Made by a program: the position numbers and the translations under genes. Of a DNA stretch of 64,000 nucleotides, positions 2,900-40,694 are shown piece by piece. Positions within the stretch are counted from its first letter, which is position 1. Each line of letters begins with the position of its first letter. This DNA is from Parapedobacter tibetensis (GTDB lineage Bacteria; Bacteroidota; Bacteroidia; Sphingobacteriales; Sphingobacteriaceae). Location: the NCBI RefSeq assembly GCF_024704835.1, contig NZ_JAMXBE010000014.1, positions 1 to 64,000 of the forward strand, read 5' to 3'. The notes under the pieces are model-generated. The model worked only from the letters and a program-made list of their open reading frames with translations. It had not been told where the DNA came from and did no database searches.

Positions 2900-2909
2900 A
2901 AAAGGATGC

Positions 2910-2935
2910 CCTGCTGGGTAAATATTCCCAGCAGG
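2910..2935 (+). terminator. Perfect hairpin between the adhesin and porP genes
   Basis: Arms CCTGCTGGG (2910-2918) and CCCAGCAGG (2927-2935) pair over 9 bases around an 8-base AT loop, 10 bases after the adhesin stop. No U-run follows, so it may reduce read-through or protect the mRNA end and need not stop transcription fully. Confidence 0.45.
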
Positions 2936-2986
2936 TCATTAATTAGAAGAAGCTGATTTGACCAACATCCAATAAAAGATAAAGAC

Positions 2987-3949
2987 ATGAAGAAGTATTT
3001 TTTTCTACTGCTGATATTAGCCTCAACCGCTCCTGCTTTTGCCCAGCAAGTAGCGCAGTATAGCCAGTATATGTTTAACGGGTTGTACATCAACCCCGCG
3101 TATGCAGGCTATCGCGGACCGGTGAATTTGCATACGTATTATCGGTCGCAATGGACGGGTATACCCGATGGCCCGCGTACGTTGGCTTTGGCGGCGGATA
3201 TGCGTACTGCCAGTGATAATGTGGGACTTGGGTTGAATATCATGAGCGACCGCGTAGGTTTGGAAAAACGTATCTACGCTTATGCAAATTACGCATACCG
3301 CCTGCGTGTAGGTTGGGATCCTGAAGATCGGCTGTCGTTCGGTCTCGGATTGGGTGTAATCCATTCTGGGTTTGATAACGCAGATGCTAGGACGCAAGAT
3401 CCCGAGGCCGTGAACATCGAAAATTCGTTTCTACCGGATGCGCGGTTTGGTGTTTACTATTCCAATAATACCTTTTTCGCAGGTGTTGGGGTCGATAACC
3501 TGATTTCTCGTTTGTTGTTTAATGAAGATAATGGAAGTACCCGTATTCCGCCAATCACCCAATACTACATCAATGTAGGCGGAATTGTGCCCATTGCAAG
3601 TGATATGTTATTTAAACCTTCCATTATGGTCAAGAATGCGAATAATGCGGTAACGAGGGCTTGGACAACCGATTTAAATGCTGCGGTCATTTTTGCTGAG
3701 CAGATTACTTTTGGGGTATCCTACCGAACCGCACTATCAAGTGGCGATAAACTATCAAGTGATCTTTCCCGTCCAAATTCCATCATTGCGCTGGCTGAAT
3801 TTATTGCCGGCGGCCAGTTCAGGATTGGCTATTCCTTCGATTACGCATTAAGTAGGATACACAATCAAGTAGGTAGCACACACGAGATATCGTTGGGGTA
3901 TACCTTAAACAAGGGTACACAACGAGTACGTACGCCGCGGTACTTTTAA
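2987..3949 (+). CDS. PorP/SprF family type IX secretion membrane protein
   Basis: 320 residues with a cleavable signal peptide (hydrophobic run ending in AFAQQ). The early motif QYSQYMFNGLYINPAYAGYR is the hallmark of PorP/SprF proteins; the rest is a predicted outer-membrane beta-barrel. Family knowledge: PorP/SprF-like proteins act with individual cargoes that carry type B C-terminal domains and are usually encoded directly downstream of them, as here (88 bases after the adhesin stop). It probably serves secretion or surface attachment of that adhesin. The length is normal for the family. Confidence 0.92.
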   Translation: MKKYFFLLLILASTAPAFAQQVAQYSQYMFNGLYINPAYAGYRGPVNLHTYYRSQWTGIPDGPRTLALAADMRTASDNVGLGLNIMSDRVGLEKRIYAYANYAYRLRVGWDPEDRLSFGLGLGVIHSGFDNADARTQDPEAVNIENSFLPDARFGVYYSNNTFFAGVGVDNLISRLLFNEDNGSTRIPPITQYYINVGGIVPIASDMLFKPSIMVKNANNAVTRAWTTDLNAAVIFAEQITFGVSYRTALSSGDKLSSDLSRPNSIIALAEFIAGGQFRIGYSFDYALSRIHNQVGSTHEISLGYTLNKGTQRVRTPRYF

Positions 3950-4003
3950 TTTTCAGGATTTCCGGATTAACCCATGCTGAGAAGTTATAAACAATATTGA
4001 CCT

Positions 4004-5932
4004 ATGAGAATTTTTGACAATAAGATTAACCTGATTTTCGGACTTTGTCTGCTGGCAGTTCTTCCTCTTCAGGCACAGTACTCCCTTTTGAAGTCCGCTG
4101 ATCGTGAATTCGAATCCTTTAATTTCATTAAGGCGATTGAATTGTACCAAAAGGCTTATGATGCTAAGGCAGACATTAAAACGGTTGAGCGCCTTGCGGA
4201 GTCATATTTTAATATCCGTAATTATGGTGAAGCCGAAACATGGTATGCAAAATTGGCCAACCATGACGATGCCAAAATCGATCATATCCTGCAATACGGA
4301 CACGTGCTTCGCAACAATTCCAAATTTAGAGAGGCAAAGGCCCAATACCAACGTGCGGCATTGAAAGATGATGGGGGGGCATTAGCTGAAGAGCTGAAAG
4401 TGCTCTATGCCTCATGCGACTCGGCAATGGTGTGGCTTGAAAACCCCATAAAAGCCGTGGAAGTGAGGAATGAGAAATACCTGAACAGTGCCCAAGCGGA
4501 GTTTGGTGCAACCAAGGGACCTGATGGCCTTTATTTTGCCTCAGACCGGTTTAGTGGTGCAGTCAAATCCGATGTTATTTATGGATGGACCGGAAACCCG
4601 TATTTGTCTATGTATTCGGCTAAAGATAAGGTAGTCGACAAGGTGGACGCTAAATGGGGCGATGGAGCCAACCACTTCGGCCCAGCGACATTTTCTACGG
4701 AACGAAATGAGGTTTATTTTGCGGTAACCAGGAAACCTGATAGGGAAGAAAAAAGGAAAGCGGGAAGGGATGTGACAGTCAATATTGAGATTTTCTCCAA
4801 CACGTTAGATACGGCTAATTGGGGTGAGCAAGCGACACCTTTCCGTTATAATAATATCACCGAATGGTCGGTGGGCGATCCATTCCTGAGCCCTTCTGGG
4901 GATACCTTATACTTTACATCCGATATGCCAGGCGGACAAGGGGGCACTGATATATACTACGTGGTTCGTCAGACAGATGGTGCTTGGGGAGATGCTGCCA
5001 ATATGGGGAGTGTAGTCAATACCACTGGCGACGAGCGTTTTCCAACAATTGATGACCAAGGGGACTTTTATTTCTCATCTGATGGCCACCTGGGAATGGG
5101 CGGACTGGATGTTTATAAACTGGACAAAGGAAGTGGTCAGCCGCAGGTATCGAATTTGGGCTACCCGTTCAACTCACCTTATGATGATTTTTCTATCCGT
5201 TTCGACAAGGAAACGGAGGGTTATTTCGCTTCCAACAGAAAAGGTGGATCTGGAGCCGATGACATCTATTGGTTCAACCTCGATAAACGAATTCAGCTTG
5301 ATTTGGTCGGCGGGGTATACAACTCAAGAAGCAAACTGCCTATATCCGGTGCTAAGGTGACCCTTACACCTGCAGGCGATGAAGCAAATGCGGTGGTATT
5401 AAACGCGGGTAGTGATGGAAAGTTCAAGTTTAATCTCGCGGAAGAAACAGATTACCAAATCACAGCTGAGCAGACGGGATTCAGGGAAGCTACACCCTTA
5501 GCGTTCACCACAAAAGGGATAACCAAAACAATGACGGTACAAAAAGATATCTTCCTTGACCCGGTGGAAAAAGATGAAGTGGTTGTTTTGCGTAATATCT
5601 ATTTCGATTTCGACAAGGCGGATATCCGACCAGATGCGGCACTGGAATTGGACAAGATCTTAGCTTTCTTAAATAGCGACCCGAAGGTGAAAATCGAACT
5701 AAGTGCACATACCGACTCTAGAGGAACACAGGCTTACAACATGAAGTTGTCGCAAAGAAGGGCAGATTCAGCCATCGAGTACTTGGTTTCAGGGGGTATC
5801 AGCAGAGATCGCCTGGTTGCCAAAGGTTACGGCTTCACCAAATTGGCCAATCATTGTGCCAAAGGGGTGAAATGTACTGAAGAAGAACATCAATGGAATA
5901 GGCGCGTGGAATTTTTCGTGATTGAGAATTGA
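4004..5932 (+). CDS. OmpA-family protein with TPR-like, PD40 and carboxypeptidase-regulatory-like domains
   Basis: 642 residues. An N-terminal signal peptide (ending in LQAQY) is followed by a TPR-like helical region (about 25-140). WD40-like/PD40 propeller repeats (about 150-420) contain motifs such as LYFTSDMPGGQGGTDIY and FSSDGHLGMGGLDVY. A small beta-sandwich follows (about 430-515). The C-terminal OmpA peptidoglycan-binding domain (about 530-642) carries YFDFDKADIRPDA, then HTDSRG and the basic QRRADSA helix. Proteins of this layout often sit next to porP/sprF genes and are thought to anchor T9SS or adhesin assemblies to the cell wall. It is the last gene before a strong terminator. Confidence 0.9.
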   Translation: MRIFDNKINLIFGLCLLAVLPLQAQYSLLKSADREFESFNFIKAIELYQKAYDAKADIKTVERLAESYFNIRNYGEAETWYAKLANHDDAKIDHILQYGHVLRNNSKFREAKAQYQRAALKDDGGALAEELKVLYASCDSAMVWLENPIKAVEVRNEKYLNSAQAEFGATKGPDGLYFASDRFSGAVKSDVIYGWTGNPYLSMYSAKDKVVDKVDAKWGDGANHFGPATFSTERNEVYFAVTRKPDREEKRKAGRDVTVNIEIFSNTLDTANWGEQATPFRYNNITEWSVGDPFLSPSGDTLYFTSDMPGGQGGTDIYYVVRQTDGAWGDAANMGSVVNTTGDERFPTIDDQGDFYFSSDGHLGMGGLDVYKLDKGSGQPQVSNLGYPFNSPYDDFSIRFDKETEGYFASNRKGGSGADDIYWFNLDKRIQLDLVGGVYNSRSKLPISGAKVTLTPAGDEANAVVLNAGSDGKFKFNLAEETDYQITAEQTGFREATPLAFTTKGITKTMTVQKDIFLDPVEKDEVVVLRNIYFDFDKADIRPDAALELDKILAFLNSDPKVKIELSAHTDSRGTQAYNMKLSQRRADSAIEYLVSGGISRDRLVAKGYGFTKLANHCAKGVKCTEEEHQWNRRVEFFVIEN

Positions 5933-8222: not shown

Positions 8223-11200
8223 ATGAAAAGTTTTTTTTATGCAATGGACAAAATCCTGTTAACCTGCCTGCTCTTAGGTATTGCTGTTCATTCCAATGCT
8301 ACAATGGGGGCTCATGGGGCCCGACAGGGCAAAATAGTACGGGGACAGGTCATGGAAGAGGGGACAAATGAGCCGCTGGTTGGCGTAAGTGTTCATGTTA
8401 AAGGCACCACGGCGGGGACGGTTACTAATCATGCAGGAAGATATGAGATCAATGTCGCCTCAGATGAAGCCATACTCGTGTTCTCTTATACGGGTAAAAA
8501 AACGGTAGAACGCTTTGTTAACGATTTAACCGTGATCGATGTGGTGATGACGAATGACGAAACCATGCTTTCGGAAGTATACATCGGGTACATGACCCAG
8601 CGGAAAGCCGATCTTACCGGCTCGATCGCGATGGCAACGGCAAGTGACATCGAGAAGAATCCTTCGGCAAATGCCATGAAATCCCTCCAGGGCAAGCTCG
8701 CCGGCGTACACATCACAACAAATGGGGGTAACCCTTCAGAAGGTGTGAACGTACAGATCAGGGGGCTCTCATCCTTATCCGGAGAAGTCAGGCCCTTGAT
8801 CGTGCTGGATGGGATGCCGACCGAGAACCTAAATCTGCGGGACATAAACGCAGGAGATATTGAATCCATTCAGGTATTGAAGGACGCAGCCTCAGCTAGT
8901 ATATACGGGGCAAGGGCTTCCGGAGGTGTGATATTGATCCAAACGAAAAAGGGAAAGGTCGGCCAAACTAAAGTTGAATACAATGGCAGTGTTGCGTTGA
9001 GCAAAGTAATTGATAAACCCACATTGATGAATGCCGAACAATACGGGGTCGCCACGTTCCGGGCATATGCATACGATGAAGCAGTGTATGGCATACCCAT
9101 TTCGTTGCCCGGCACCTATGATTTCACGTGGCATCGGGATGCCAACGGAAGGCCTGTATTGGATGCGGTGAAACCTGCGGAATGGCTCAACCCGGAGCAA
9201 ACCGTGAGGGGATCTGACACAGACTGGTTGGGTGAACTACTCCAACCGGCGATGATGACTAACCATCAACTGACGATATCCAGCGGAACGGAGCGATCAA
9301 GAAGTTTGTTCTCCTTGGGCTATTACGATAATGAAGGGACACAGATTCACACCTTCTTCAGGCAGTATTCGATACGTACGAATACGGAGTACAATTTGAT
9401 CAATAACCGGTTGAAAATAGGCGAAAATCTGGCAGTATCTTATTTGCAGTATAAGGACGGGAATGAAATGCGTTGGGCCTTGATTAACCCCCCAGCCGTT
9501 CCTGTTTATGACATAAACGGAGGATGGGCCGGAGCTGCAGGGTTTGACGATTTCACGAATCCGATACGGGTCCTGACCGATAGCAAAGGTAACATCAGCA
9601 ATTATGTGAAAATAATCGGAAATGTCTTTGCTGATCTTACCATCTGGAACGGCTTATCGGCCCGTACACAATTCGGGGTTGACTACGGAAACGCTTACAA
9701 CCGGAATGTGGATAAGCTTTGGTCTGAAACCGGAGGCAGGAACAGCGATGGAGAAAATTATGTAGGAAACAGCCAGTCCCATCCGTTAAGCTATGTGTGG
9801 ACCAATACCCTGTCTTATAGTATGAGCACGGACAGGCATAGCCTGGATGCCGTGGCCGGTGTCGAATATACACGGTTTGTGCAGGAAGGATTTTCAGCAA
9901 GAAGGGAGGGTATTTACCTTGAAGACCGGGATTTTGCCCATATCGGTGTGACGACGGGTACGAAATATTCACTTGGCAGTTCAGCGGATGAATACGTCTA
10001 TTTCTCCCTTTTCGGTAAAGCTAACTACGTTTATAACCAAAAGTATTTGTTCTCTGCCACGCTGCGCCGCGACGGTTCATCCCTCTTCGGCGCAAACAAC
10101 CGATATGCGGTATTTCCGGCATTTTCGGCCGGATGGCGGATCAGTAGCGAACCTTTTATGCAGCGCCATGAGGTCATATCTGACCTTAAAATACGAGCGG
10201 GTTGGGGCACAAACGGAAGTGTGCAAGGCCTCCCCCGTGGCTATACCTCAACGCCGTTTACAACGGACTATTTCGGGACGTCCTATCCGATAGAAGGGAA
10301 TGAAACCGGACCCTTGTACTCGGGTTATAGACGGACTTGGTTGGGTAATCCGGATCTGAAATGGGAAACAACCACACAAACCGACGTAGCGGTAGATTTC
10401 GGTTTGTTGGATAATCGGATAAACGGTTCGCTAGGCTATTATTTCAAGAAAACAAGGGATATTTTGGTCCAGACACCCTACATCGCGGCGATGGGTGAGG
10501 GTGGTGAGCCCTGGATCAATGGTGCAGATATGAATAACCGGGGGATTGAATTCGAGATTGGGTATCGCAACGATCCGAGGCATGCATTCCAATATGCCAT
10601 TTCGGCCAATGTAGGCACCTACAAAACCAAAATAGTTAGCCTCCCGGAGAATGTGATCAACAAATATCCGGGTGATGGCGTTCATGATCTTGTCCTGGGC
10701 AGAACACCTAATATCCTATATGGTTTAGTGGCGGATGGCATATTCAAAACACGGGAAGAGGTCGACAGCCATGCCGAGCAACCGGGGAAAGCCATTGGTC
10801 GTATCCGCTATAAAGACCTGGATGGCAATGGTATAGTGCAGGAGTTGCATGATCGGGCATATATCGGAATCATGGATCCGGATTTCTTTGGGGGAATCAC
10901 CTTTGACCTCAATTATCGCAATTTTGATATGAATGTGTTTTTCCAAGGTGTTTTCGGCAATAAAGTAGACAACATTTGGAAACGAGAATCCGATTTATGG
11001 AACATCACCGTTCCGGCACATAAAAACCACCCTAACCGGATTTTAGATGCATGGTCTTTCGATAACCCAAGCGCCGATATCCCCGCCATATCCAATTCAA
11101 CACAAAATGCGGAACATCGTTTTTCCAGCTATTTCGTGGAAGACGGGTCTTACCTGAAATTGAGAAACATAGAGCTTGGCTACACACTTCCGAGCGCCGT

Positions 11201-11372
11201 GTCGAATAAGATGATGATGCAGCATTTGCGGGTATATGCCTCAGCGCGTAATGTGCTGACACTTAAAAAGAACTGGGGTAAGGACAGATTTACCAGTTTT
11301 GATCCGGAGATGCCGGGCTATGGCTACTTGACGCCTTTTTTTGCGACCCTTGGACTTAACGTTACCTTCTAA
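8223..11372 (+). CDS. SusC/RagA-type TonB-dependent outer membrane transporter (locus 1)
   Basis: 1049 residues. Signal peptide, then a carboxypeptidase-regulatory-like domain (VRGQVMEEGTNEPLVGVSV), then a plug with the SusC signature VLKDAASASIYGARASGGV, then a 22-strand barrel ending in the usual aromatic-rich strand (LGLNVTF). There is no STN signalling domain, consistent with the absence of a sigma/FecR pair here. It imports oligosaccharides captured by SusD, using TonB energy. The susD start follows 11 bases after the stop. The substrate cannot be told from the transporter itself. Confidence 0.95.
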   Translation: MKSFFYAMDKILLTCLLLGIAVHSNATMGAHGARQGKIVRGQVMEEGTNEPLVGVSVHVKGTTAGTVTNHAGRYEINVASDEAILVFSYTGKKTVERFVNDLTVIDVVMTNDETMLSEVYIGYMTQRKADLTGSIAMATASDIEKNPSANAMKSLQGKLAGVHITTNGGNPSEGVNVQIRGLSSLSGEVRPLIVLDGMPTENLNLRDINAGDIESIQVLKDAASASIYGARASGGVILIQTKKGKVGQTKVEYNGSVALSKVIDKPTLMNAEQYGVATFRAYAYDEAVYGIPISLPGTYDFTWHRDANGRPVLDAVKPAEWLNPEQTVRGSDTDWLGELLQPAMMTNHQLTISSGTERSRSLFSLGYYDNEGTQIHTFFRQYSIRTNTEYNLINNRLKIGENLAVSYLQYKDGNEMRWALINPPAVPVYDINGGWAGAAGFDDFTNPIRVLTDSKGNISNYVKIIGNVFADLTIWNGLSARTQFGVDYGNAYNRNVDKLWSETGGRNSDGENYVGNSQSHPLSYVWTNTLSYSMSTDRHSLDAVAGVEYTRFVQEGFSARREGIYLEDRDFAHIGVTTGTKYSLGSSADEYVYFSLFGKANYVYNQKYLFSATLRRDGSSLFGANNRYAVFPAFSAGWRISSEPFMQRHEVISDLKIRAGWGTNGSVQGLPRGYTSTPFTTDYFGTSYPIEGNETGPLYSGYRRTWLGNPDLKWETTTQTDVAVDFGLLDNRINGSLGYYFKKTRDILVQTPYIAAMGEGGEPWINGADMNNRGIEFEIGYRNDPRHAFQYAISANVGTYKTKIVSLPENVINKYPGDGVHDLVLGRTPNILYGLVADGIFKTREEVDSHAEQPGKAIGRIRYKDLDGNGIVQELHDRAYIGIMDPDFFGGITFDLNYRNFDMNVFFQGVFGNKVDNIWKRESDLWNITVPAHKNHPNRILDAWSFDNPSADIPAISNSTQNAEHRFSSYFVEDGSYLKLRNIELGYTLPSAVSNKMMMQHLRVYASARNVLTLKKNWGKDRFTSFDPEMPGYGYLTPFFATLGLNVTF

Positions 11373-11383
11373 ATTTTTTTACC

Positions 11384-13141
11384 ATGGAAAAGTTTAAATT
11401 CTTCATATTTTCCTTCGCGCTCACGTTGACGGCGATAGGTTGTGCTGATTCGCTTAATGTGGCACCCAAACAAGTATTGGACGAGTCGCTGCTAACAAAA
11501 CCAAGTGATATGGAAGGTTTTGTGTCAGCGGCTTATGCCAGGATGACAGACATCCCGTCATTTGATTCGCCCTTTTCACCTTGGTGGACAGGTTCGATGC
11601 GGTCTGACGACTCCTATAAAGGAGGGGGCGGGACATGGGACGGCGACGGTTGGCACTTCATGGAGACGTTTGTCGGCGTAACGCCAAACGGATGGCCGCT
11701 CGATTATCCCTGGTATGTATCCTACCAGATCATACAGCGGTGCAATACCGCGATCCAAAAGTTGCAGAACATCACGGAAGAGGAATTTCCGCAAAAAAAT
11801 GCCCGGATCGGTGAAGTGACGTTTATCCGGGCTTTCACCCATTTCAGGCTCAAACAGTTTTTCAAGTATATCCCCTATATCGATGAACATGTGGTAGGAA
11901 CCTCGGCTGAGTTTGAAGCGGTCCCTAACAGGGAACGGGACCGACCCAACGACCAATATTTATGGGAACGTATTTTGGCTGATTTTAAAGAAGCGGAAGT
12001 GCTACTGCCGGAAATCCAGCCGAAGAAAGGAAGGGTAGACAAGAATGCAGCAACGGCAATGGTGGCGAGAACACTGCTGTTTATGGCATACGAGCAGGAC
12101 GACAGGAATAGCGTGGTAAACATCAATATGGAGCGGCTGACCGAAGCGTTGGTTTATCTGGATAAGTTAACCGACCAGGAAGGGGCAAAGGTTGGTCTAC
12201 AAGCTGATTTCGCCGATAATTTTGATATCGCTTTTGACAATAATACGAAGGAATCAATTTGGGAAATACAGTATTCCATTGACGACGGCAGCTCAACGGG
12301 AGGGAAAATAAACAGGGGAGAGGGATTGAACCATCCATTCCAGTGGGGTGGATTCCAATGCTGTGGATTCCACCATATAAGCTATAATATGGGTAGTGCT
12401 TTTAAAACCGGACCTGATGGGCTACCGCTGTTCGATACCTACAACAACGGCAGCTATGCCGATGGAGATGATGCGTTTTTTGGCCAGAATACGTTCGACC
12501 CACGTTTCAGCCATACGGCGGTCGCCCCCGGACAGCCTTGGAAATATAACCCCAATCTGCTGTTTGAAACAGCCGGAATCCGAAATGGTGCTGAATACGG
12601 TTACCTGAAATCCGTAAAGGAGTTGGTGCCGCCGGATTGCAATTGTTTATTATACGATGGGTGGCAGTTTAATTCGATGAACAAGCAGATGATCAGGTAC
12701 GATGAGGTGTTACTGTGGAAAGCGGAAGTGCTTATCCAGTTGGATCGGTGGAACGAATCCTTGGGGTTGATCAACAAGATTCGTGAAAGAGCCGCGAACA
12801 GTACGGGCCGTTTAGTGAAAAAAGATGGGTCGCCTGTATTGAATTATAAAATTGAACCATACAAGCCGGGCATAAACTGTACATGGGATAAGGATTTTGC
12901 GTGGAAAGCATTGCAATGGGAAAACCGCCTTGAAATGGCCGGTGAAGGACGCCGCTTCTTTGACCTGCAGCGTTGGGGGATTTTGACGCAAACGATGAAT
13001 GACTATTTTGCCGTTGAAAAAAACAGGTTTCCGTGGATGGGCATCGCACGCTTTACCGCCGGGCGTGATGAATATTTCCCCATACCACAAGCCCAAATCA
13101 ATTGGGCAAAAGGTAATTATACACAGAATGTGGGATATTAA
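11384..13141 (+). CDS. SusD/RagB-type surface glycan-binding lipoprotein (locus 1)
   Basis: 585 residues with a lipoprotein signal (TAIGC), a helical TPR-like SusD fold, the motif AFTHFRLKQFFKYIPYID, and the typical C-terminal run ALQWENRLEMAGEGRRFFDL...YFPIPQAQINW. SusD caps the SusC barrel and binds glycan at the cell surface. It is in an operon with susC (11-base gap) and is followed 17 bases later by a small lipoprotein gene. It is longer than average for SusD. Confidence 0.94.
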   Translation: MEKFKFFIFSFALTLTAIGCADSLNVAPKQVLDESLLTKPSDMEGFVSAAYARMTDIPSFDSPFSPWWTGSMRSDDSYKGGGGTWDGDGWHFMETFVGVTPNGWPLDYPWYVSYQIIQRCNTAIQKLQNITEEEFPQKNARIGEVTFIRAFTHFRLKQFFKYIPYIDEHVVGTSAEFEAVPNRERDRPNDQYLWERILADFKEAEVLLPEIQPKKGRVDKNAATAMVARTLLFMAYEQDDRNSVVNINMERLTEALVYLDKLTDQEGAKVGLQADFADNFDIAFDNNTKESIWEIQYSIDDGSSTGGKINRGEGLNHPFQWGGFQCCGFHHISYNMGSAFKTGPDGLPLFDTYNNGSYADGDDAFFGQNTFDPRFSHTAVAPGQPWKYNPNLLFETAGIRNGAEYGYLKSVKELVPPDCNCLLYDGWQFNSMNKQMIRYDEVLLWKAEVLIQLDRWNESLGLINKIRERAANSTGRLVKKDGSPVLNYKIEPYKPGINCTWDKDFAWKALQWENRLEMAGEGRRFFDLQRWGILTQTMNDYFAVEKNRFPWMGIARFTAGRDEYFPIPQAQINWAKGNYTQNVGY

Positions 13142-13158
13142 CAGAAAACATCGAAATC

Positions 13159-13569
13159 ATGGTAAAGTTAGTTCATGTAGTTGGTGTAGCGCTCAGCGCC
13201 ATCTTGTTGGTAGGTTGCTACGATAGGGATATTATCGATTATAAGGAGTTTGGCTATTCCTTGCCCAACGTGAAAAATTTGGCATACTCCAGACAGGGGG
13301 ATTTAGTCACATTGACATGGGAAATACCCGAAAGTATCTCGGCTGGCTTTAGAAGGCCCCTAGAGGTGAGCATACAAAAAGTAGAGAATGGGGTCTACAG
13401 GGAAATAATCATGGTGCATGGCGAAAGTACATCACGTGACATTGCCATCGACGCCAACAAAACGTACCGGTTTGTGGTTAAGCTAGCGGGGTACCTCACG
13501 GATGATGTACGAGCAACGGGAAAACCGGATAGGGTCTATTCTGAAGGCGAGGTCCTTGAGATTCAGTGA
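13159..13569 (+). CDS. Small lipoprotein, fibronectin-III-like (possibly DUF4945)
   Basis: 136 residues. Lipoprotein signal ending in LLVGC (Cys 20), then a single beta-sandwich reading like a fibronectin type III module (LTWEIPES..., YRFVVKLAGYL). Tightly spaced between susD and the DUF4185 gene (17 and 10 bases), so it is co-transcribed. I recall DUF4945 proteins occurring in similar positions, but cannot confirm the family. It is probably an accessory surface glycan-binding protein; that is inference. Confidence 0.6.
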   Translation: MVKLVHVVGVALSAILLVGCYDRDIIDYKEFGYSLPNVKNLAYSRQGDLVTLTWEIPESISAGFRRPLEVSIQKVENGVYREIIMVHGESTSRDIAIDANKTYRFVVKLAGYLTDDVRATGKPDRVYSEGEVLEIQ

Positions 13570-13579
13570 TAATTGATAG

Positions 13580-15010
13580 ATGAATCTAGGGTATATCAAA
13601 AAATATAGGCTATGTGTAGCTTTTGCCTGTTGCGCGCATCTGTTCGCTGCATGTAGCAAAGGTGATGGCAATAAGCTTGGTGAGCCAACGGATGAGATAA
13701 CCGCTGCGGAAACCAGCCTTATTCCAGACAGGCACACAAAGGTCGTATCGACTGTGTTGAGTTTTGTGGATCTCGATGCGATAGATCATATCATGGTCAA
13801 GAAAAGTGGGGGAGACCATTACCCGGTTCGCATAGGCCGGCAAGAACTTTCATCGCCCTATGCGTTTCATTACACCATCCAGCAATCCGATCCGGAATCT
13901 TTCAGGTTGGTGCTGGTTGCTTATTATAGAAATGGGAATGTATCGAAAGAACTTTCCTTGAACGTGGACAACCGTTGGGGATTTTTTATCCGGGGTGCTA
14001 GTCGTGTAGCCCGTGTGACGGGCAGGACAATGGCAGGCGAAAATTTCCCCAGTCCGAACAATACGGCGGCAGCATGGAATGTGGGCGGGACTGATCTTGG
14101 TGTCATATGGGAGATGGAACAAGGGAAGTATGGGTTTTTTTTTGGCGATACATTCGGAAGCGATTTTGTACCCAACCAAGCTAATCCGGGACCTAATGGG
14201 GGGAGTTGGCGATGCAATGTATTGGCTTTTTCGGATGACAATAACCTGGAAGACGGACTTTCATTGAGCGGTATGGTTACAGGTAACGGTGGGAATGCCC
14301 GGGAAATTATATATGGTGGAAAAGACCAGTCGGGCAATGGCGACTGGACATCCATCCCTACGGCAGCCATCCGGGCAAACGGGATTGACTACGTGCACTA
14401 TTTCAATATTAGAAATTGGACAGGGTGGGTTACAAATTATTCAGGGATATACAAATCTACGGATAATGGTCAGACATGGACGAAATGCGAAGATGCCGTG
14501 TTCTCGTCAAACAGTAAATTCGGACAAGGTGGCTATTTCAAGAAAGATGGCTATGTGTATATGATGGGTACCGAAACAGGTCGGGATAGCCCTGCGTACT
14601 TGGCACGTTTCCGGGAATCCGACATCGAAAATCCGGATGATTATGAATATTGGAACAGCTCAACCGCCCAATGGATAAAAGGTGACGAAAGCCAGGCGAC
14701 GATCCTAATAAACGATAAGGTGGGGGAGTTATCTTTCATCTATAATGATAAACACGAAAAGTGGATAGTTGCCTATTTCAATGGCGATCGATATAATATA
14801 ACCATGCGCACGGCCGTAGATATCGTCGGCCCCTGGAGCGAACCTTATGAATTGGCGGCCGGCAGTGAATATGCCCAGTTGTATGGTTCGTACTTCCATC
14901 CATTATCGACTTCCGGTGATCACCTGTATTTCCTGATGTCCATGTGGATGCCTTACAATGTCTTCCTGATGAGGGCTGAATTGGCCGACATGGGTAGTTT
15001 TGCAGATTAA
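13580..15010 (+). CDS. DUF4185 lipoprotein, possible GH183-related arabinan-acting enzyme
   Basis: 476 residues. Lipoprotein signal (LFAAC), an N-terminal beta domain (to about 140), then a DUF4185 propeller with the hallmark GGTDLGVIWE...YGFFFGDTF and repeated blade words such as YKSTDNGQTWTKCED. Known: some DUF4185 proteins are endo-D-arabinofuranosidases (GH183), found in mycobacteria and in a Dysgonomonas glycan locus; others are uncharacterised. Here it is the only hydrolase-like protein directly in the susCD operon, so it is likely the surface enzyme of locus 1. The D-arabinan substrate is inference. Confidence 0.8.
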   Translation: MNLGYIKKYRLCVAFACCAHLFAACSKGDGNKLGEPTDEITAAETSLIPDRHTKVVSTVLSFVDLDAIDHIMVKKSGGDHYPVRIGRQELSSPYAFHYTIQQSDPESFRLVLVAYYRNGNVSKELSLNVDNRWGFFIRGASRVARVTGRTMAGENFPSPNNTAAAWNVGGTDLGVIWEMEQGKYGFFFGDTFGSDFVPNQANPGPNGGSWRCNVLAFSDDNNLEDGLSLSGMVTGNGGNAREIIYGGKDQSGNGDWTSIPTAAIRANGIDYVHYFNIRNWTGWVTNYSGIYKSTDNGQTWTKCEDAVFSSNSKFGQGGYFKKDGYVYMMGTETGRDSPAYLARFRESDIENPDDYEYWNSSTAQWIKGDESQATILINDKVGELSFIYNDKHEKWIVAYFNGDRYNITMRTAVDIVGPWSEPYELAAGSEYAQLYGSYFHPLSTSGDHLYFLMSMWMPYNVFLMRAELADMGSFAD

Positions 15011-15081: not shown

Positions 15082-15819
15082 ATGTGGTGGATAAAAAACA
15101 GTAAAGAAATGGCAATAATTTTTTTCCTTAGGAGTACTATACTAGCATACGGTAAGCTACTATGCAGTGTTGGTTTGAGTTGTACGATATTGGCCGGCTG
15201 TTGTGCGGCTTGCGCACAGCAAAAGACTAAACCTGAAGGGGGAGTGGGCAAAACGGTAGCGCTGTTCGATGGGGAGACGCTGACAGGCTGGAAATCCGTG
15301 GATCCCGATGACGGACATTATTGGTCGGTAATGGATAGCCTGATCACTGGGGGGGATGGAGAGACCCCGGTGCCCAAAAACACTTATCTCCGGACAATCC
15401 GGGAATACGGGGATTTCGAGTTCAGGTGCCTGTTCCGCCTTTCGGGTGACCACGGAAGCGGTTTTATCAACAGTGGGATCCAATACCGTTCGAAAGTGGT
15501 TGACAACGATATTGTGGGTTATCAGGCCGATATCGGAAGGGGCCATTGGGGTGATCTTTATGACGAGCATCGCAGGGGGCTGTTGGTGCCCGGTGATTTG
15601 AATACACTGCGGCATATCCTTCATGAGGATGGGTGGAACAGTTATATTATCCGGGTTCATGGCATGCACCACGAGCTTTACATCAATGGTGTAAAAACGG
15701 CTGACTATATCGAAAAGGATCCGAATATCCCATCAACGGGTGTAATCGCATTCCAGCTCCACAGCGGCGGGGCAGCGAAGCTCCAGGTGAGGGATGTGAC
15801 CATTACGGAATGGCCATGA
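15082..15819 (+). CDS. DUF1080 lipoprotein, 3-keto-disaccharide hydrolase family
   Basis: 245 residues. Lipoprotein-type signal (ILAGCCAAC), then a LamG-like jelly roll with the DUF1080 words LFDGETLTGW, GDFEFRCLFRL, NSGIQYRS and GYQADIG. Family knowledge: DUF1080 proteins include 3-keto-disaccharide/3-ketoglycoside hydrolases, which cleave glycosides after C3 oxidation. A dehydrogenase-like fusion downstream would provide such an oxidation step. A later in-frame ATG at 15109 is a possible start. It lies 71 bases after the DUF4185 gene with only a weak hairpin between them. Confidence 0.85.
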   Translation: MWWIKNSKEMAIIFFLRSTILAYGKLLCSVGLSCTILAGCCAACAQQKTKPEGGVGKTVALFDGETLTGWKSVDPDDGHYWSVMDSLITGGDGETPVPKNTYLRTIREYGDFEFRCLFRLSGDHGSGFINSGIQYRSKVVDNDIVGYQADIGRGHWGDLYDEHRRGLLVPGDLNTLRHILHEDGWNSYIIRVHGMHHELYINGVKTADYIEKDPNIPSTGVIAFQLHSGGAAKLQVRDVTITEWP

Positions 15820-15862
15820 TGGTATCAATCTTTTAAGTAATATGATACAAAATAACGAAGAA

Positions 15863-15891
15863 ATTGAGACGATACCGCTTCTTTATTTTTG
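15863..15891 (+). promoter_or_regulatory. Internal promoter before the cupredoxin-dehydrogenase gene
   Basis: -7 TATTTTTG (15884-15891) is perfect; a TTG at 15864-15866 lies 17 bases before it. Transcription would start near 15898, upstream of the preferred start at 15964. It suggests that the last two genes of locus 1 can be expressed separately. Confidence 0.5.
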
Positions 15892-15963
15892 AAATAGCCA
15901 CTACTTTTAATGGACAATTATACCCCTAGATTTTATTACATTTACAGTATAACCAAATTGAAC

Positions 15964-18753
15964 ATGTATTTACGTTTATCCCACATTGCCTTCTTATTTC
16001 TGTTTGCTGCGTTTGTTGCGGCTTGTTCCGGCGATTCTGATTCGGCAGATTCACAGCAAATTGACCGCGAATACGTACTGGATGCCAAGATGATTGGCTA
16101 TACCGGAATCGGTGGCGACATAGACGGCAGGATGAATCCCGTACTTCGTGCGAAAAAGGGCGAGCGCGTGAAAGTTTCCCTGATCAACGGGGAGTTGATG
16201 GCCCATGACATCGTATTGGAAAAGGCGGGGGTCAAAAGTGAAACCATGCTGGAAGAAGGTGATACGACAAGTGTCATATTCAAAGCCATGGAAGATGATA
16301 TTTACTATTGCAGCCTTCCGGGCCACCAGATGGTCATGCGGGGACAGTTTAAGATCGTCGAGGATTTCGAAGCAGCTATAGTGAGCGACAATTGGGGTGT
16401 TTCTCCCCGGAAGGACGGCAGGCCCCTGAATTTCGGTTTCGAGCGCGGCAACCTGCAGGACTGGCAGGCAACGGGTAATGCATTTGGTCCCAAATCGGTG
16501 ACCTACGATCCAGCCCCGTGGTATCCGGATAGTGCGGTGCTGAAGCAATCGGGCGACTACTATGTGAGCAGTGGGGGCACGTTGAATTATCAAGCTACGG
16601 GCATGCTTACTTCAACATCATTTAAGGTGACGCACCCTTGGGCATCGTTCAAGGTAACGGGGGGCGCCATGGAAGGTTTACGGGTAGAGCTCGTGGATGC
16701 GGTTGCGGATACGGTCGTTTTTAAGATTTCGGGGTATGTCACCGAAAGTGAGCCAAGCAATCCGGCACATGCCGCATTCCGCCCGGTCGTGGTAGATCTC
16801 ATGCGTTACAGGAATAAAGAGCTATACATCCGCCTGGTTGACGACGAAACCGGTACGGTGCCCGAAATCCCTTACATTGCCGACAACCCTTGGGCCCATA
16901 TTTCGTTCGATGACTTCCGGTTCCACGAGGAAAGGCCTTCCTATGCCAATGAATTACGGCCTGACGACGTAGTGATCCTTCCGGCGAAAGACGTGGTGCC
17001 CAATGCAGGGCTTTCGGGTGCCGAGGCGGCGAAAGTCATGGAACTTCCCGACGGTTTTTCAGTGACGCTGGCGGCAGCTGAGCCTGATATCATTCGCCCG
17101 ATCGCGTTTACCCTGGATGACCGGGGTAGGTTGTGGGTTGTAGAGGCACATACTTATCCGGTGCGTGCCCCTGAAGGGCAGGGCAGAGACCGGATTTTGA
17201 TTTTTGAGGACACCAACGGTGATGGTGTGCTGGATAGCAGGAAAGTCTTCATGGAAAAGCTTAACATGGTCAGCGCAATCGCACTGGGTTTTGGCGGGGT
17301 GTGGCTGGGTGCCGCACCATACCTCATGTTTATCCCGGTTGATTGGGAAAAGGATGCCCCGGCCGGGGAACCGCAGATCCTGCTCGACGGCTTTGCCTAC
17401 GAAGATACCCATGAGGTACTCAACACCTTCAAATGGGGCCCCGATGGCTGGTTATACGGAACACAGGGGGTATTCACGCACTCCAATGTAGGGAAACCGG
17501 GGGCACCCGATAAGGAACGGATACCGATCAATGCGGGTGTATGGCGATTTCATCCCACCAAACATGAATTTGAAGTTTTTTCCCACGGTATGAGCAATCC
17601 CTGGGGAATTGATTTCAATGACCATGGACATACATTTGCGACGGTCTGCGTGATCCCTCATCTGTTTCACATGATACAGGGGGGAAGGTACCATCGCCAA
17701 GCCGGAGAGCATTTCAATCCCTATACCTATGAAGATATCAAAACCATCGCCGACCACGTGCACTGGTTGGGCGACAGGGGGCCGCATGCTGGGAATTTCC
17801 GCTCTGCCGCCGCAGGTGGCGGACATGCGCATGTGGGAGCCATGTTTTACCTGGGGAACAAACACTGGGGTATCAATAGGAATGCGATTTTCATGAATAA
17901 TATCAATGGTTTCCGCGTAAATATGGACATCACCAAACGATTGGGGTCTGGTTATACGGCGAGCCATGGGAAGGACTTTATCAATACCAATGATTTTTGG
18001 TCGCAATGGCTGAATTTCCAGATCGCACCCAGCGGATCGGTGTATGTGAATGATTGGTATGACAAAAACCAGTGCCACAGCCCGAATCCGGATGTCCACG
18101 ATAAGACCCTGGGCCGTATTTTCAGGATCAGCCACCGGGAGGATAAGTGGGTAAGCGTTGATCTGACTAAAAAGACCGATCAGGAGCTGGTGGAATACCA
18201 ACTCCATGAAAATGAATTTTATGTGGTACACAGCCGCCTCCTATTACAGGAAAGAGGGGCCAATGATGCGGTGCGTGATGGATTGTGGAAGATTTTTAGT
18301 GACAATCCGGATGTCACCCGGAAACTGCGCGCATTGTGGGCATTGCATGTAACAGGAGGGATTAATGAAAAGCAATTGTTGGATTTGCTGGACCATGACG
18401 ATGAAAATATACGTGCCTGGGGAATCCAATTGCTTGCCGAAACGAAAGATGTGTCCGCGGATGCACAGCGCCGTTTCGAGCGGCTGGCCAAAGATGATGC
18501 CTCGGCATTGGTGCGGCTACACCTTGCTTCCGCTCTCCAACGGATGGAACCGAACAGCCGGTGGGGTATCCTCAAGAACCTGAGCATGCACGAAGAAGAT
18601 GCCGGCGACCAAAACATACCGTTGATGGTGTGGTACGCTTTGGAGCCATTGGTTGCACTTGATGCCAACCGCGCCTCTGATTTGGCAAAAGCAGCCAAAT
18701 GGCCGGTTTTGCAGGATTTTGTTGCCAGGAGGATTGCAGATGGAAAACGATAA
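15964..18753 (+). CDS. Lipoprotein fusing cupredoxin, PVC-type dehydrogenase propeller and HEAT repeats
   Basis: 929 residues from the chosen ATG, which starts a clean lipoprotein signal (AFVAAC); an upstream in-frame ATG at 15910 would add 18 residues and spoil it. Domains: type-1 copper cupredoxin (about 35-140) with candidate ligands His81, Cys116, His121 and Met125 (YYCSLPGHQMVM, azurin-like spacing); a beta-sandwich (about 155-325); a propeller of the PVC-type membrane-bound dehydrogenase family (about 350-720; LPDGFSVTLAA, DDRGRLWVVEAH, WGPDGWLYGTQG); HEAT-like helices to the end. The usual C-terminal cytochrome c is absent (no CxxCH), so copper may replace haem as electron carrier. The substrate is probably a sugar; this is unproven. 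Confidence 0.8.
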   Translation: MYLRLSHIAFLFLFAAFVAACSGDSDSADSQQIDREYVLDAKMIGYTGIGGDIDGRMNPVLRAKKGERVKVSLINGELMAHDIVLEKAGVKSETMLEEGDTTSVIFKAMEDDIYYCSLPGHQMVMRGQFKIVEDFEAAIVSDNWGVSPRKDGRPLNFGFERGNLQDWQATGNAFGPKSVTYDPAPWYPDSAVLKQSGDYYVSSGGTLNYQATGMLTSTSFKVTHPWASFKVTGGAMEGLRVELVDAVADTVVFKISGYVTESEPSNPAHAAFRPVVVDLMRYRNKELYIRLVDDETGTVPEIPYIADNPWAHISFDDFRFHEERPSYANELRPDDVVILPAKDVVPNAGLSGAEAAKVMELPDGFSVTLAAAEPDIIRPIAFTLDDRGRLWVVEAHTYPVRAPEGQGRDRILIFEDTNGDGVLDSRKVFMEKLNMVSAIALGFGGVWLGAAPYLMFIPVDWEKDAPAGEPQILLDGFAYEDTHEVLNTFKWGPDGWLYGTQGVFTHSNVGKPGAPDKERIPINAGVWRFHPTKHEFEVFSHGMSNPWGIDFNDHGHTFATVCVIPHLFHMIQGGRYHRQAGEHFNPYTYEDIKTIADHVHWLGDRGPHAGNFRSAAAGGGHAHVGAMFYLGNKHWGINRNAIFMNNINGFRVNMDITKRLGSGYTASHGKDFINTNDFWSQWLNFQIAPSGSVYVNDWYDKNQCHSPNPDVHDKTLGRIFRISHREDKWVSVDLTKKTDQELVEYQLHENEFYVVHSRLLLQERGANDAVRDGLWKIFSDNPDVTRKLRALWALHVTGGINEKQLLDLLDHDDENIRAWGIQLLAETKDVSADAQRRFERLAKDDASALVRLHLASALQRMEPNSRWGILKNLSMHEEDAGDQNIPLMVWYALEPLVALDANRASDLAKAAKWPVLQDFVARRIADGKR

Positions 18754-19960
18754 GGAAATGATAAAAACAGGAAAAATTGCCCCTTTATACCTAGGGTGCG
18801 TGTTGTTGGTTTGTGCAATGACAGCCTGTAAGGTTCAGCACAGGCAGGGCGTAAGTGGAGAAGAAGTGAAGTTTACAAAAACAACGCTTACAACCGAGTT
18901 CATTTCAGAAGGCGTTGCCGTCGGAGATGTCAACAACGACGGTGCCGTGGATATCATAGCTGGTGCGCGATGGTTTGAAGGGCCCGACTGGGAGCGTGTC
19001 CATGATATCTATCCCGAACCGCAGAAGTTTGATGGAACTACAGGTTACAGCAATTCGATGTTGAATTTCACCATCGATGTGGACCAGGATGGGCGGATGG
19101 ATTACATCCGGGTGGATTTCCCGGGTAAGGAGATTTGGTGGTACCAGAATCCCGGTGACACTGGAGGATACTGGCAACGACATGTCATCACCGAAGCAGC
19201 CGCTAATGAGTCGCCGGCTTTTGTCGACATCGATGGGGATGGCCGTCCGGATATCCTCTGTGCCGATCCCAATACAAAGGAGATGGTTTGGTTCCGATGC
19301 CCGGATGAAAAAGGCAATATCGAATGGATACGTCATGTAATCAGTGAAAGGGGGGCACCGGGAACGGATGTTTTTTCGCATGGACTCGGTTTCGGCGATG
19401 TAAATGGTGATGGGCGGGGCGATGTGGTCTCCATGCATGGTTGGTGGGAAGCGCCAGCCGACCCCAAGCAGCTGCATTGGACATTCCATGAAGCTGACCT
19501 TGGTGAGGATTGTGCCCAGATACACGTGATGGATGTAAACGGGGACGGATATCCGGATGTCATCAGCTCGTCGGCACACCGATTTGGGATGTGGTGGCAT
19601 GAGCAGGGCCGGGATGAGGAAGGCAACACGACCTGGCATACCCATGAAATCACCGGTGATTTTTCCCAGACACATGCGTTGTCCTTGGTGGATATCAATG
19701 GCGATGGTAATTTGGACCTGGTGAGTGGCATGCGTTATTTTGCCCATATGGGAAACGATCCGGGTGAATTGAATGACCCAGTGATTTTCTGGCTGGAATT
19801 TGTACCGGGAGAGACCCCCATCTGGATACCCCACATCATCGACAATGCCTCTGGGGTTGGGGTGGACAATGCGGTACAGGACATTAACGGAAATGGTTTG
19901 CTGGATATCGCGATTGCCAACAAGAAAGGCGTTTTCTATTTCGAACGTGTGGCACGGTAA
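18740..19960 (+). CDS. FG-GAP/VCBS-repeat lipoprotein
   Basis: 406 residues from the ATG at 18740, preceded by a full AGGAGG seven bases upstream and overlapping the previous gene by 14 bases; another ATG at 18758 is possible. The lipoprotein signal ends in AMTAC. The body is a seven-bladed propeller of FG-GAP/VCBS repeats with calcium-type loops such as DVNNDGAVD, DIDGDGRPD, DVNGDGYPD and DINGDGNLD. Repeats of this kind bind calcium; some relatives bind or act on glycans. Overlap with the cupredoxin-dehydrogenase implies translational coupling and a joint function. Its 3' end overlaps the convergent protease gene by 25 bases. Confidence 0.85.
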   Translation: MENDKEMIKTGKIAPLYLGCVLLVCAMTACKVQHRQGVSGEEVKFTKTTLTTEFISEGVAVGDVNNDGAVDIIAGARWFEGPDWERVHDIYPEPQKFDGTTGYSNSMLNFTIDVDQDGRMDYIRVDFPGKEIWWYQNPGDTGGYWQRHVITEAAANESPAFVDIDGDGRPDILCADPNTKEMVWFRCPDEKGNIEWIRHVISERGAPGTDVFSHGLGFGDVNGDGRGDVVSMHGWWEAPADPKQLHWTFHEADLGEDCAQIHVMDVNGDGYPDVISSSAHRFGMWWHEQGRDEEGNTTWHTHEITGDFSQTHALSLVDINGDGNLDLVSGMRYFAHMGNDPGELNDPVIFWLEFVPGETPIWIPHIIDNASGVGVDNAVQDINGNGLLDIAIANKKGVFYFERVAR

Positions 19961-31897: not shown

Positions 31898-32758
31898 TTA
31901 AACAAATACTGATGCAGCGCCAATCAATGCTGCATGTTCGCCCAGTTGGCTGATATGGATGTCGAAGCGGTCTAATGCTTTGGAATTGAAACTATGGAAA
32001 ATGTCCCAAGCCTTGGAGATATTACCACCTATGATGAACCTGTTCGTTCCTTCCCTTTCGCCGAAGAATTGGATGAAGTTGGTCAGGTGATGGCTGTACT
32101 CGGCCAATATGTCCGCTACAAAAGGATGCTGGCCCCGTAGTTGAAGCAGCTCGCGGAGTCCGGTCACTTTCATGTTATTTTGCGCTGCCCTTCGGACAAA
32201 CCATCGGGTTACCAAGTATTCCTCCATGATGCTATCTTGGTATGGTGTGTCCCATAAATCGGCGTCTACCGCATTTCCCCCTTGTTCCCATATGGCGCTT
32301 CCCAAACCGGTACCCAGCGTGATTCCTAAGATCTTTTGATGATCATCATGGCCCCCTGCGAAAACTTCGCCTTGGAGGAATGCCGCAGCATCATTGATGA
32401 AACGGATATTCGCTGGTTCTGTGGACAACATGGAAGCCAATTCCTGCTTAATATTCACTTGGTATAATGCATCGTATTTATCCTGATTGTGAATTAATGA
32501 TATGCCATTATCATAGTCAAACGGGCCAGGCATGGCAATGCCGACAGGTAAATGCTTGGCTGATATGTCCTTGAAGGAAGCGGTCAGTGCTTCCGTCCAA
32601 GTATATAAAATCGATTTAGCAGAAGCTGCTGAATTTACCCGATGCCTGACAATACTATGAGGTAAGATTGACCAATCTTGTGTATGGATGACAGCCGCAG
32701 TAATATGGGTACCTCCCACATCAGCAGCCATCACATACGGGCTGTTATCTTGCTGCAT
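31898..32758 (-). CDS. ROK-family sugar kinase/glucokinase-like protein
   Basis: 286 residues. It has the phosphate-binding motif [26 protein letters not shown] with the catalytic Asp, and the second glycine motif [12 protein letters not shown]. The zinc motif CxCGxxGC typical of many ROK proteins is missing, as in the polyphosphate-glucokinase-like branch. It likely phosphorylates glucose or a related hexose, or an N-acylated sugar. The start overlaps the 3' end of aroC by 14 bases, so it is translated from the aromatic operon transcript, an unusual partnership. Confidence 0.85.
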
Positions 32759-33848
32759 CGTAAATCTGGTTTTTAAGTAAATGATCAGCGAGGACCAACG
32801 CCGCCATGGCTTCTATAATAATAACTGCGCGGGGTACCACACAAGGATCATGTCTTCCTTTTCCGGTGATCTCGGTAGTTTCACCCTCCCGGCTGATGGT
32901 TTGCTGAGCGCGCATGATGGTGGCTACAGGTTTGAATGCCGTACGGAACGTGATTTCCATGCCGTTGGAAATGCCCCCTTGGATGCCTCCTGAGAAGTTG
33001 GTTAAGGTCTTCAGCTTTTCGGCATCATTTTCAGGATTGGTAAATAGGTCGTTGTGCTCAGATCCTTGCATTTCCGAGCCTGCGAAGCCGGAGCCGTATT
33101 CAAATCCATGCACGGCGTTGATGCTCATCATAGCTTTTGCCAAATCGGCATGCAATTTATCAAACACGGGTTCACCAAGCCCTACCGGTACATGCTGTAT
33201 CACGGTGCTGATGCGTCCACCCACGGTATCCCCGGCTTTACGTATGGCATCGATGAAGGCAATCATTTCATTGGCCGTGGCCGGATCGGCACAACGCACG
33301 ATATTACTTTCGCGGATTTGCGTCAGTTCGTCAATATCATGCGACACCAAGTTGGGTGCCTCTATCTTTCCTACACCGGACACATGGGCAAAAATCCGTA
33401 TGCCGAATTGCGAGAGAAAACTTTTGGCTACGGCACCTGCGGCCACACGGGCAGCGGTTTCGCGTGCTGATGAGCGCCCCCCTCCACGGTAATCGCGTAT
33501 GCCATATTTTACCTCATAGGTATAGTCGGCATGCGAGGGGCGGTATTTGTCCTTGATATGGGAATAATCTTTCGAACGTTGGTCTTCGTTGGGGATGAGC
33601 ATCGCCAATGGTGTGCCCGTGGTTTTTCCTTCAAATACACCTGAAAGGATTTTCGCGGTATCGCTCTCCTTGCGCTGGGTAGTGATTTTTGACTGCCCGG
33701 GGCGACGTTTATCCAGTTCGGATTGGATAAACGTTTCATCGATATCAATATTTGGTGGACATCCATCAATGATCACGCCGATTGCCTCACCATGCGATTC
33801 GCCAAACGTAGTTATACGGAATACATCTCCAAATGAGTTTCCTGCCAT
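32745..33848 (-). CDS. aroC: Chorismate synthase
   Basis: 367 residues, full length. It has the signature [17 protein letters not shown] near the N-terminus, [19 protein letters not shown] in the middle, and the C-terminal [11 protein letters not shown]. It makes chorismate from 5-enolpyruvylshikimate-3-phosphate using reduced FMN. Its 175-base gap to aroA carries a palindromic repeat; the ROK gene overlaps its end. Confidence 0.97.
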
Positions 33849-33945
33849 GTGTATTTTAGAATGTAGATTTTAGATGTACAATTTTTTCATAGAAGTTTCT
33901 TCTTCTCTGTCTCGCTAACGTCTAGACTTCTTTCCCACAAAAATT

Positions 33946-34006
33946 GAACACGGACGACACGGATAAATGATTAACAACCTGTGTAAATCCGCGTCATCAG
34001 CGTTCC
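33946..34006. repeat. Palindromic interspersed element between aroA and aroC
   Basis: The left arm GAACACGGACGACACGGAT and the right arm ATCCGCGTCATCAGCGTTC pair with a few G-U positions, enclosing about 20 bases. The same arm occurs at 31842. This fits a small non-coding palindromic repeat family of Bacteroidota intergenic regions. Confidence 0.55.
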
Positions 34007-34023
34007 AACTGCCCAACTTGCAG

Positions 34024-40682: not shown

Positions 40683-40694
40683 AATCGCTGTCCA

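Follow-up and report, generated by a model that had tools for sequence, protein, structure and literature searches.

The first 64,000 nucleotides of contig NZ_JAMXBE010000014.1 (assembly GCF_024704835.1) of Parapedobacter tibetensis, hereafter the window, encode a lipoprotein of 947 aa (15910..18753, plus strand) in which a cupredoxin is fused to a DUF7133/TIGR02604 propeller. This fusion is probably a (keto)sugar dehydrogenase that is anchored in the envelope and carries its own copper acceptor. Sequence comparison supports well the view that copper takes the role played by haem in its nearest relatives, and the electron carrier looks like an exchangeable part of the propeller family. We lean, by a smaller degree, towards a more general reading, in which DUF7133 propellers are a redox socket, that is, a large, uncharacterized family of envelope (keto)sugar dehydrogenases that freely exchange haem c, type 1 copper and HiPIP, one cell running the same catalyst on three kinds of carrier; the window fusion would then be such a plug-in, formed when copper took the place of a haem domain.

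Architecture of the fusion protein

The fusion consists of a lipobox, a type 1 copper cupredoxin, a jelly roll resembling carbohydrate-binding modules (CBMs), a six-bladed propeller and an alpha-solenoid, in this order. Translation probably starts at ATG 15964, giving 929 aa; in the 947 numbering used here, the lipobox cysteine is Cys39. The cupredoxin domain (approximately residues 52-157, 16063..16380) contains H99, C134, H139 and M143, i.e. the His81, Cys116, His121 and Met125 that an earlier note on this DNA had counted from ATG 15964, 18 positions lower. These residues make up the His-Cys-His-Met ligand set of type 1 copper sites in a cupredoxin fold, and the domain is expected to bind copper. 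The match to Pfam Copper-bind is marginal (21.3 bits, cut-off 21.2), and the domain matches the N-terminal cupredoxin of three-domain copper nitrite reductase with an E-value of 9.8e-16 by phmmer and 3e-25 with a profile. The cupredoxin had low confidence in the first full-length model; a second model is of moderate confidence (mean predicted local distance difference test (pLDDT) 66.6). As the earlier note had read, a haem site is missing: the only cysteines are 39, 134, 580 and 722, and hence there is no CxxCH, the motif that appears in the NCBI name of TIGR02604, 'PVC-type heme-binding CxxCH protein'. The jelly roll (approximately residues 160-345, 16387..16944), absent from the description in that note, was assigned to no family by Pfam, and its best fold match is a porphyran-binding CBM. 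At the C-terminus (18178..18744), the earlier reading of HEAT repeats holds for the predicted model, in which residues 739-927 form a helical HEAT-like alpha-solenoid with pLDDT mostly above 90, but not for Pfam HEAT_2, which stays below its cut-off.

The propeller (residues 377-776, 17038..18237) is recognized by both TIGR02604 (332.9 bits, cut-off 122.2) and DUF7133 (207.8 bits, cut-off 27). Its 13 best fold matches are all six-bladed sugar dehydrogenases, and it has the six-bladed fold of the sugar dehydrogenases dependent on pyrroloquinoline quinone (PQQ), namely, sGDH, Asd and AA12, which agrees with the dehydrogenase-type propeller seen earlier. Because a sequence profile ranked designed, teneurin and NHL propellers above sugar dehydrogenases, we relied on fold and profile-profile comparison. 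In an hhalign alignment with nine short single-domain GSDH proteins (373-463 aa), N563 of the fusion aligns with the Asn of GSDH. In the ungapped register, H501 misses the catalytic His (sGDH His144, AA12 His363) by one residue, and a one-residue gap would bring the two together. The PQQ-binding arginine of sGDH is Arg228. In the fusion the counterpart of this arginine, which is Arg430 in AA12 (PMC6881789), is replaced by Ser562, and at the same position Arg is found in 0 of 11 fused N-terminal copper rows, 0 of 27 fused C-terminal copper rows and 21 of 53 haem rows. Since the PQQ-binding residue was tested and is absent, we do not class the fusion as a PQQ enzyme. The search for pqqE gave no hit over the cut-off in 8 genomes and likewise none in 14 control genomes, and pqqC was over the cut-off in 0 of 16 genomes and in no control genome either; uptake of PQQ from outside is possible (PMC6881789).

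Electron carriers of the propeller family

We collected 109 propeller open reading frames (ORFs) from 23 Bacteroidota genomes and classified them with profiles built for this analysis. After dropping L047_8, which runs into a contig end, and counting L099_4 and L099_5, probable halves of a frame-broken gene, once as haem, 107 genes were judged (L and G numbers are our locus and genome labels). This incomplete sample comprises at least these genes, with G032 and weak matches taken in part, and we restrict the pattern to DUF7133/TIGR02604 propellers, short single-domain GSDH proteins lying outside the classification. A one-electron carrier was found for all 107 genes: haem c in 58, a fused cupredoxin in 39, a separate cupredoxin in 5 and a separate adjacent HiPIP-like protein in 5. 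Three cases were settled later, two involving HiPIP-like genes hidden by antisense ORFs and one a hidden cupredoxin gene; L133_0 was scored as copper although its C-terminus is cut, and L093_0 and L093_2 were left out as duplicates. The fused cupredoxins comprise 27 of azurin type (26 C-terminal and one internal) and 12 N-terminal ones. No propeller gene has two carriers in one protein, although separate extra carriers may exist beside haem-fused genes. The 17 genes scored as haem from the motif alone all match Pfam Cytochrom_C, and four of the five HiPIP-like proteins exceed the Pfam cut-off, the one in L042 being below (18.9 versus 22). Among 244 other ORFs of at least 400 aa in the same loci, used as a control, eight have CxxCH and one has a cupredoxin, and the latter belongs to a propeller as its split-off partner. 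The expectation of the earlier note that PVC-type dehydrogenases usually carry cytochrome c is thus borne out for 58 of the 107 genes and not for the remainder. That one propeller is paired with three one-electron carriers unrelated to each other argues for a redox enzyme and predicts what to assay. Annotation labels the family either 'heme-binding CxxCH protein' or a domain of unknown function, and the former name is misleading, since haem is absent from the protein in 49 of the 107 members sampled.

The source genome alone encodes six propeller proteins, of which five exceed the TIGR02604 cut-off and the sixth does not, with four carrier solutions: the N-terminal cupredoxin of the window fusion, a C-terminal azurin-type domain (two proteins), a cytochrome c at the C-terminus (one protein) and, in two proteins, no carrier fused. 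Downstream of each of the last two (L042:6317-8831 and L043:8234-10773), at a distance of 2 or 15 bp, lies a small HiPIP-like gene, and the same gene pair recurs in L061, L091 and L106. Four genomes encode a separate cupredoxin-HEAT protein, with an FG-GAP gene between the cupredoxin and propeller genes, and in L149 a separate cupredoxin follows a carrier-less propeller. The cupredoxin-HEAT protein of the G494 group (L138:5011-9891) has a HEAT tail that shares ~49% identity with the tail of the propeller protein, as if the two had come from a split and duplication.

Carrier changes were traced on an unrooted tree of 101 propellers, six of the 107 being left out for short propeller matches; the tree was a quick one, supported by the Shimodaira-Hasegawa approximate likelihood ratio test only and with long-branch warnings. 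It requires at least 5 carrier changes compared to 42.3 for shuffled labels, and therefore the carrier appears to be mostly inherited within clades. Fused C-terminal copper accounts for three changes and HiPIP for one. Proteins of the N-terminal-copper type, together with their split forms, make up a single clade (support 99). It groups (99) with four haem proteins, of which three are DUF6807-propeller-cytochrome c proteins by Pfam. This comparison with the nearest haem relatives favours the proposal of the earlier note that copper stands in place of haem. As the root of the tree was not inferred, we can only infer the direction of change, from haem to copper. The clearest case of change, apparently a natural carrier swap, is found within one genus: L083_2 (L083:3517-6726) and L064_2 (L064:3586-6873) are 57.8% identical over 939 aa, after which the former ends in a haem c domain and the latter in an azurin. 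Such haem-to-copper swaps within one genus provide a natural test of how an enzyme is rewired.

The window fusion is not unique, an idea that we rejected upon finding the full fusion in 8 of 201 genomes of the family. The cupredoxin-jelly-roll part was matched in 14 of 395 genomes of the phylum, of which five (source genome included) have the fusion, four have the cupredoxin split off and five have the jelly roll only.

Neighbouring genes and candidate reactions

The DUF1080, fusion and FG-GAP genes were confirmed as ORFs with Pfam or TIGR02604 matches where the earlier note had placed them, all on the plus strand, and lipoboxes read from the three protein sequences agree with its cell-envelope location. 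The DUF1080 protein (245 aa, 15082..15819) belongs to the 3-keto-disaccharide hydrolase family (PF06439, 101 bits, cut-off 26.8), has a predicted export signal in the lipobox LAGC at residues 37-40, and finds its best PDB match in 4jqt, a putative hydrolase (4.9e-16). The FG-GAP lipoprotein (18740..19960; PF13517, 1.3e-34) has the lipobox MTAC. Its gene shares 14 bp with the fusion gene, and an AGGAGG lies within the 3' end of the latter before ATG 18740, which suggests that FG-GAP is translationally coupled to the fusion. A PDB sequence search for an aldos-2-ulose dehydratase-like FG-GAP gave no match better than E 0.24 and leaves that idea untouched. Upstream of the DUF1080 gene are SusC (8223-11372), SusD (11384-13141), DUF4945 (13159-13569) and DUF4185 (13580-15010), also on the plus strand; other genomes of the genus have different genes upstream of the fusion locus.

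The fusion and its neighbours recur in other genomes, as the earlier note had proposed to check, but FG-GAP is the commoner partner and DUF1080 the looser one. FG-GAP adjoins the copper-type propeller gene on the same strand within 436 bp in 11 of 16 loci (10 by neighbour scan and G494 by tblastn, one further contig ending too early), spanning the family codes f1, f24, f10 and f52. DUF1080 adjoins the fusion in 5 of 16 loci, lies 5-6 kb off on the other strand in 4, and ~9 kb off in G078 and G007, i.e. it is within ~10 kb in 11 of 16 in all. In seven genomes, copper-type propellers have DUF1080 within 5 kb in 5 of 7 cases (0.24 expected) and within 10 kb in 7 of 7 (0.43 expected), five of the seven being from one genus and thus not independent; for the other propellers of these genomes the counts are 7 of 58 (2.2 expected) and 9 of 58 (4.0 expected), one of those with DUF1080 sharing a locus with a copper-type gene. 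Matches below the cut-off, one match passing only with its neighbours and G032 were excluded from this test. In two loci (L033:5512-7833 in G078 and L034:5747-8098 in G003) a second propeller, with a C-terminal azurin, directly follows the FG-GAP gene.

We infer the redox activity of the fusion, its substrate, cofactor and electron route, and the roles of FG-GAP and DUF1080, as follows. A sugar would be bound with the help of the jelly roll and perhaps FG-GAP, and would undergo two-electron oxidation in the propeller; an aldose or keto-aldose oxidized at its anomeric carbon is most likely. Electrons would then move in one-electron steps to the type 1 copper domain of the same protein, which would pass them to the respiratory chain. 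The substrate may be a sugar or keto-sugar released from a glycoside, perhaps by the DUF1080 protein, which reverses the order given in the earlier note; that the propeller oxidizes what DUF1080 has released is a tentative idea. The fold kin of the propeller oxidize the anomeric carbon of sugars, and C1 oxidation of a released sugar fits this fold better than production of a 3-keto sugar. Oxidation after release is further favoured by the 2-keto-D-glucose dehydrogenase activity of a homologue of the fungal pyranose dehydrogenase CcPDH (PMC6881789).

According to the earlier note, the propeller would instead oxidize carbon 3 of a glycoside, with electrons going to copper and DUF1080 cleaving the 3-keto product. 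We regard this order as unlikely. It would account for DUF1080 adjoining or lying near the fusion, yet DUF1080 is inconstant in the neighbourhood, the fold kin are anomeric-carbon enzymes, and other candidates for the C3 step are present. Gfo/Idh oxidoreductases, which include C3-oxidizing enzymes, are encoded near 7 of the 16 copper-type loci (four checked with Pfam, and the remaining three sharing 90-96% identity with one of these), and PF13618, which we take to be part of LacABC-type enzymes, is present in all 16 genomes with copper-type loci. In the source genome PF13618 occurs at 3 places outside the window, and in G385 genes for a GMC protein and a Gluconate_2-dh3 protein lie together ~6 kb away from the fusion; a Pfam scan of 31 window proteins found no recognized C3-oxidizing enzyme (GMC or Gfo/Idh). 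DUF1080 proteins have been proposed to act after a 3-dehydrogenase elsewhere (PMC9007349), but the C3 enzymes that we know of, LacABC (PMC9007349) and Gfo/Idh, are from other families. Production of a 3-keto glycoside by the propeller is therefore unsupported.

The main published result that weighs against a dehydrogenase is that Lac161_ORF7, a haem member of the family (TIGR02604-HEAT-cytochrome c, assigned to Verrucomicrobia), was reported as a beta-galactosidase: the purified protein freed glucose from lactose with a Km of 1.8 mM (PMC5342196, the sole report on the TIGR02604 family that we found in the open-licence literature). If so, the propeller would be a glycoside hydrolase and its carriers would serve something else, which we consider slightly less probable still than C3 oxidation. 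The assay scored glucose release by a protein made in E. coli, according to the same report, so that host beta-galactosidase is a possible source, and hydrolysis would leave the one-electron carrier of all 107 judged genes without an explanation. The coupling of carrier and propeller holds for either direction of electron flow, and the copper or haem domain might feed the propeller or a partner, as in a reductase or in supply to a copper oxygenase; a fungal AA12 enzyme drives lytic polysaccharide monooxygenases (PMC5960967). Such reverse flow seems improbable, the least favoured of these readings, as the best fold kin are dehydrogenases and no oxygenase family turned up among the window proteins scanned.

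Elsewhere in the window, a T9SS type B sorting-domain protein, a PorP/SprF-family protein and an OmpA-like protein are encoded in a row (50-5932). The minus strand encodes a ROK-family protein, chorismate synthase, EPSP synthase and DAHP synthase-chorismate mutase (31901-36377), as well as a DUF1501 and DUF1800 pair (39495-42098). Behind SusC/SusD genes, a sulfatase is followed by a FAD_oxidored-Golvesin_C protein (60289-63845).

Comparison with known systems

We found no description of the copper fusion or of carrier exchange in the open-licence literature, most subscription papers being outside that scope. The fusion shares the propeller family and HEAT-like helices with the TIGR02604 haem proteins, but lacks their haem site and has copper at the opposite terminus. 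Type 1 copper is also combined with the propeller in the C-terminal azurin-type DUF7133 proteins (ThuA, propeller, LamG-like, azurin; L041 and L044 in the source genome), yet these belong to a separate clade and have another type of cupredoxin at the opposite end. The closest solved relative of the cupredoxin itself is the N-terminal domain of the Hyphomicrobium three-domain copper nitrite reductase (2dv6, 6tfd), where, unlike in the fusion, it is attached to a nitrite reductase. LacABC lactose 3-dehydrogenase consists of a GMC flavoprotein, a cytochrome c and a small subunit. As in the window, it places envelope sugar oxidation beside DUF1080 (PMC9007349), but it has no DUF7133 propeller.

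Outside Bacteroidota, we opened four plasmid records from a longer list, and the three readable non-Bacteroidota cases all have haem; the fourth case, from Runella (Bacteroidota), is truncated by the end of its record. Haem is fused in Catenovulum and Gemmatirosa, and on a plasmid of Ketogulonicigenium vulgare, a producer of a vitamin C precursor, a separate c-type cytochrome gene lies 24 bp upstream of the TIGR02604 propeller gene (L192:4410-7160), which might encode an already characterized dehydrogenase. By analogy, we propose that the fusion operates in the manner of quinohaemoprotein sugar dehydrogenases, for example fungal CcPDH, which joins an AA8 haem b domain, an AA12 PQQ propeller and CBM1. 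Compared to CcPDH, copper replaces haem b, the CBM-like module sits between carrier and propeller, the counterpart of Arg430 is lost, an alpha-solenoid is added, and the whole is a bacterial lipoprotein.
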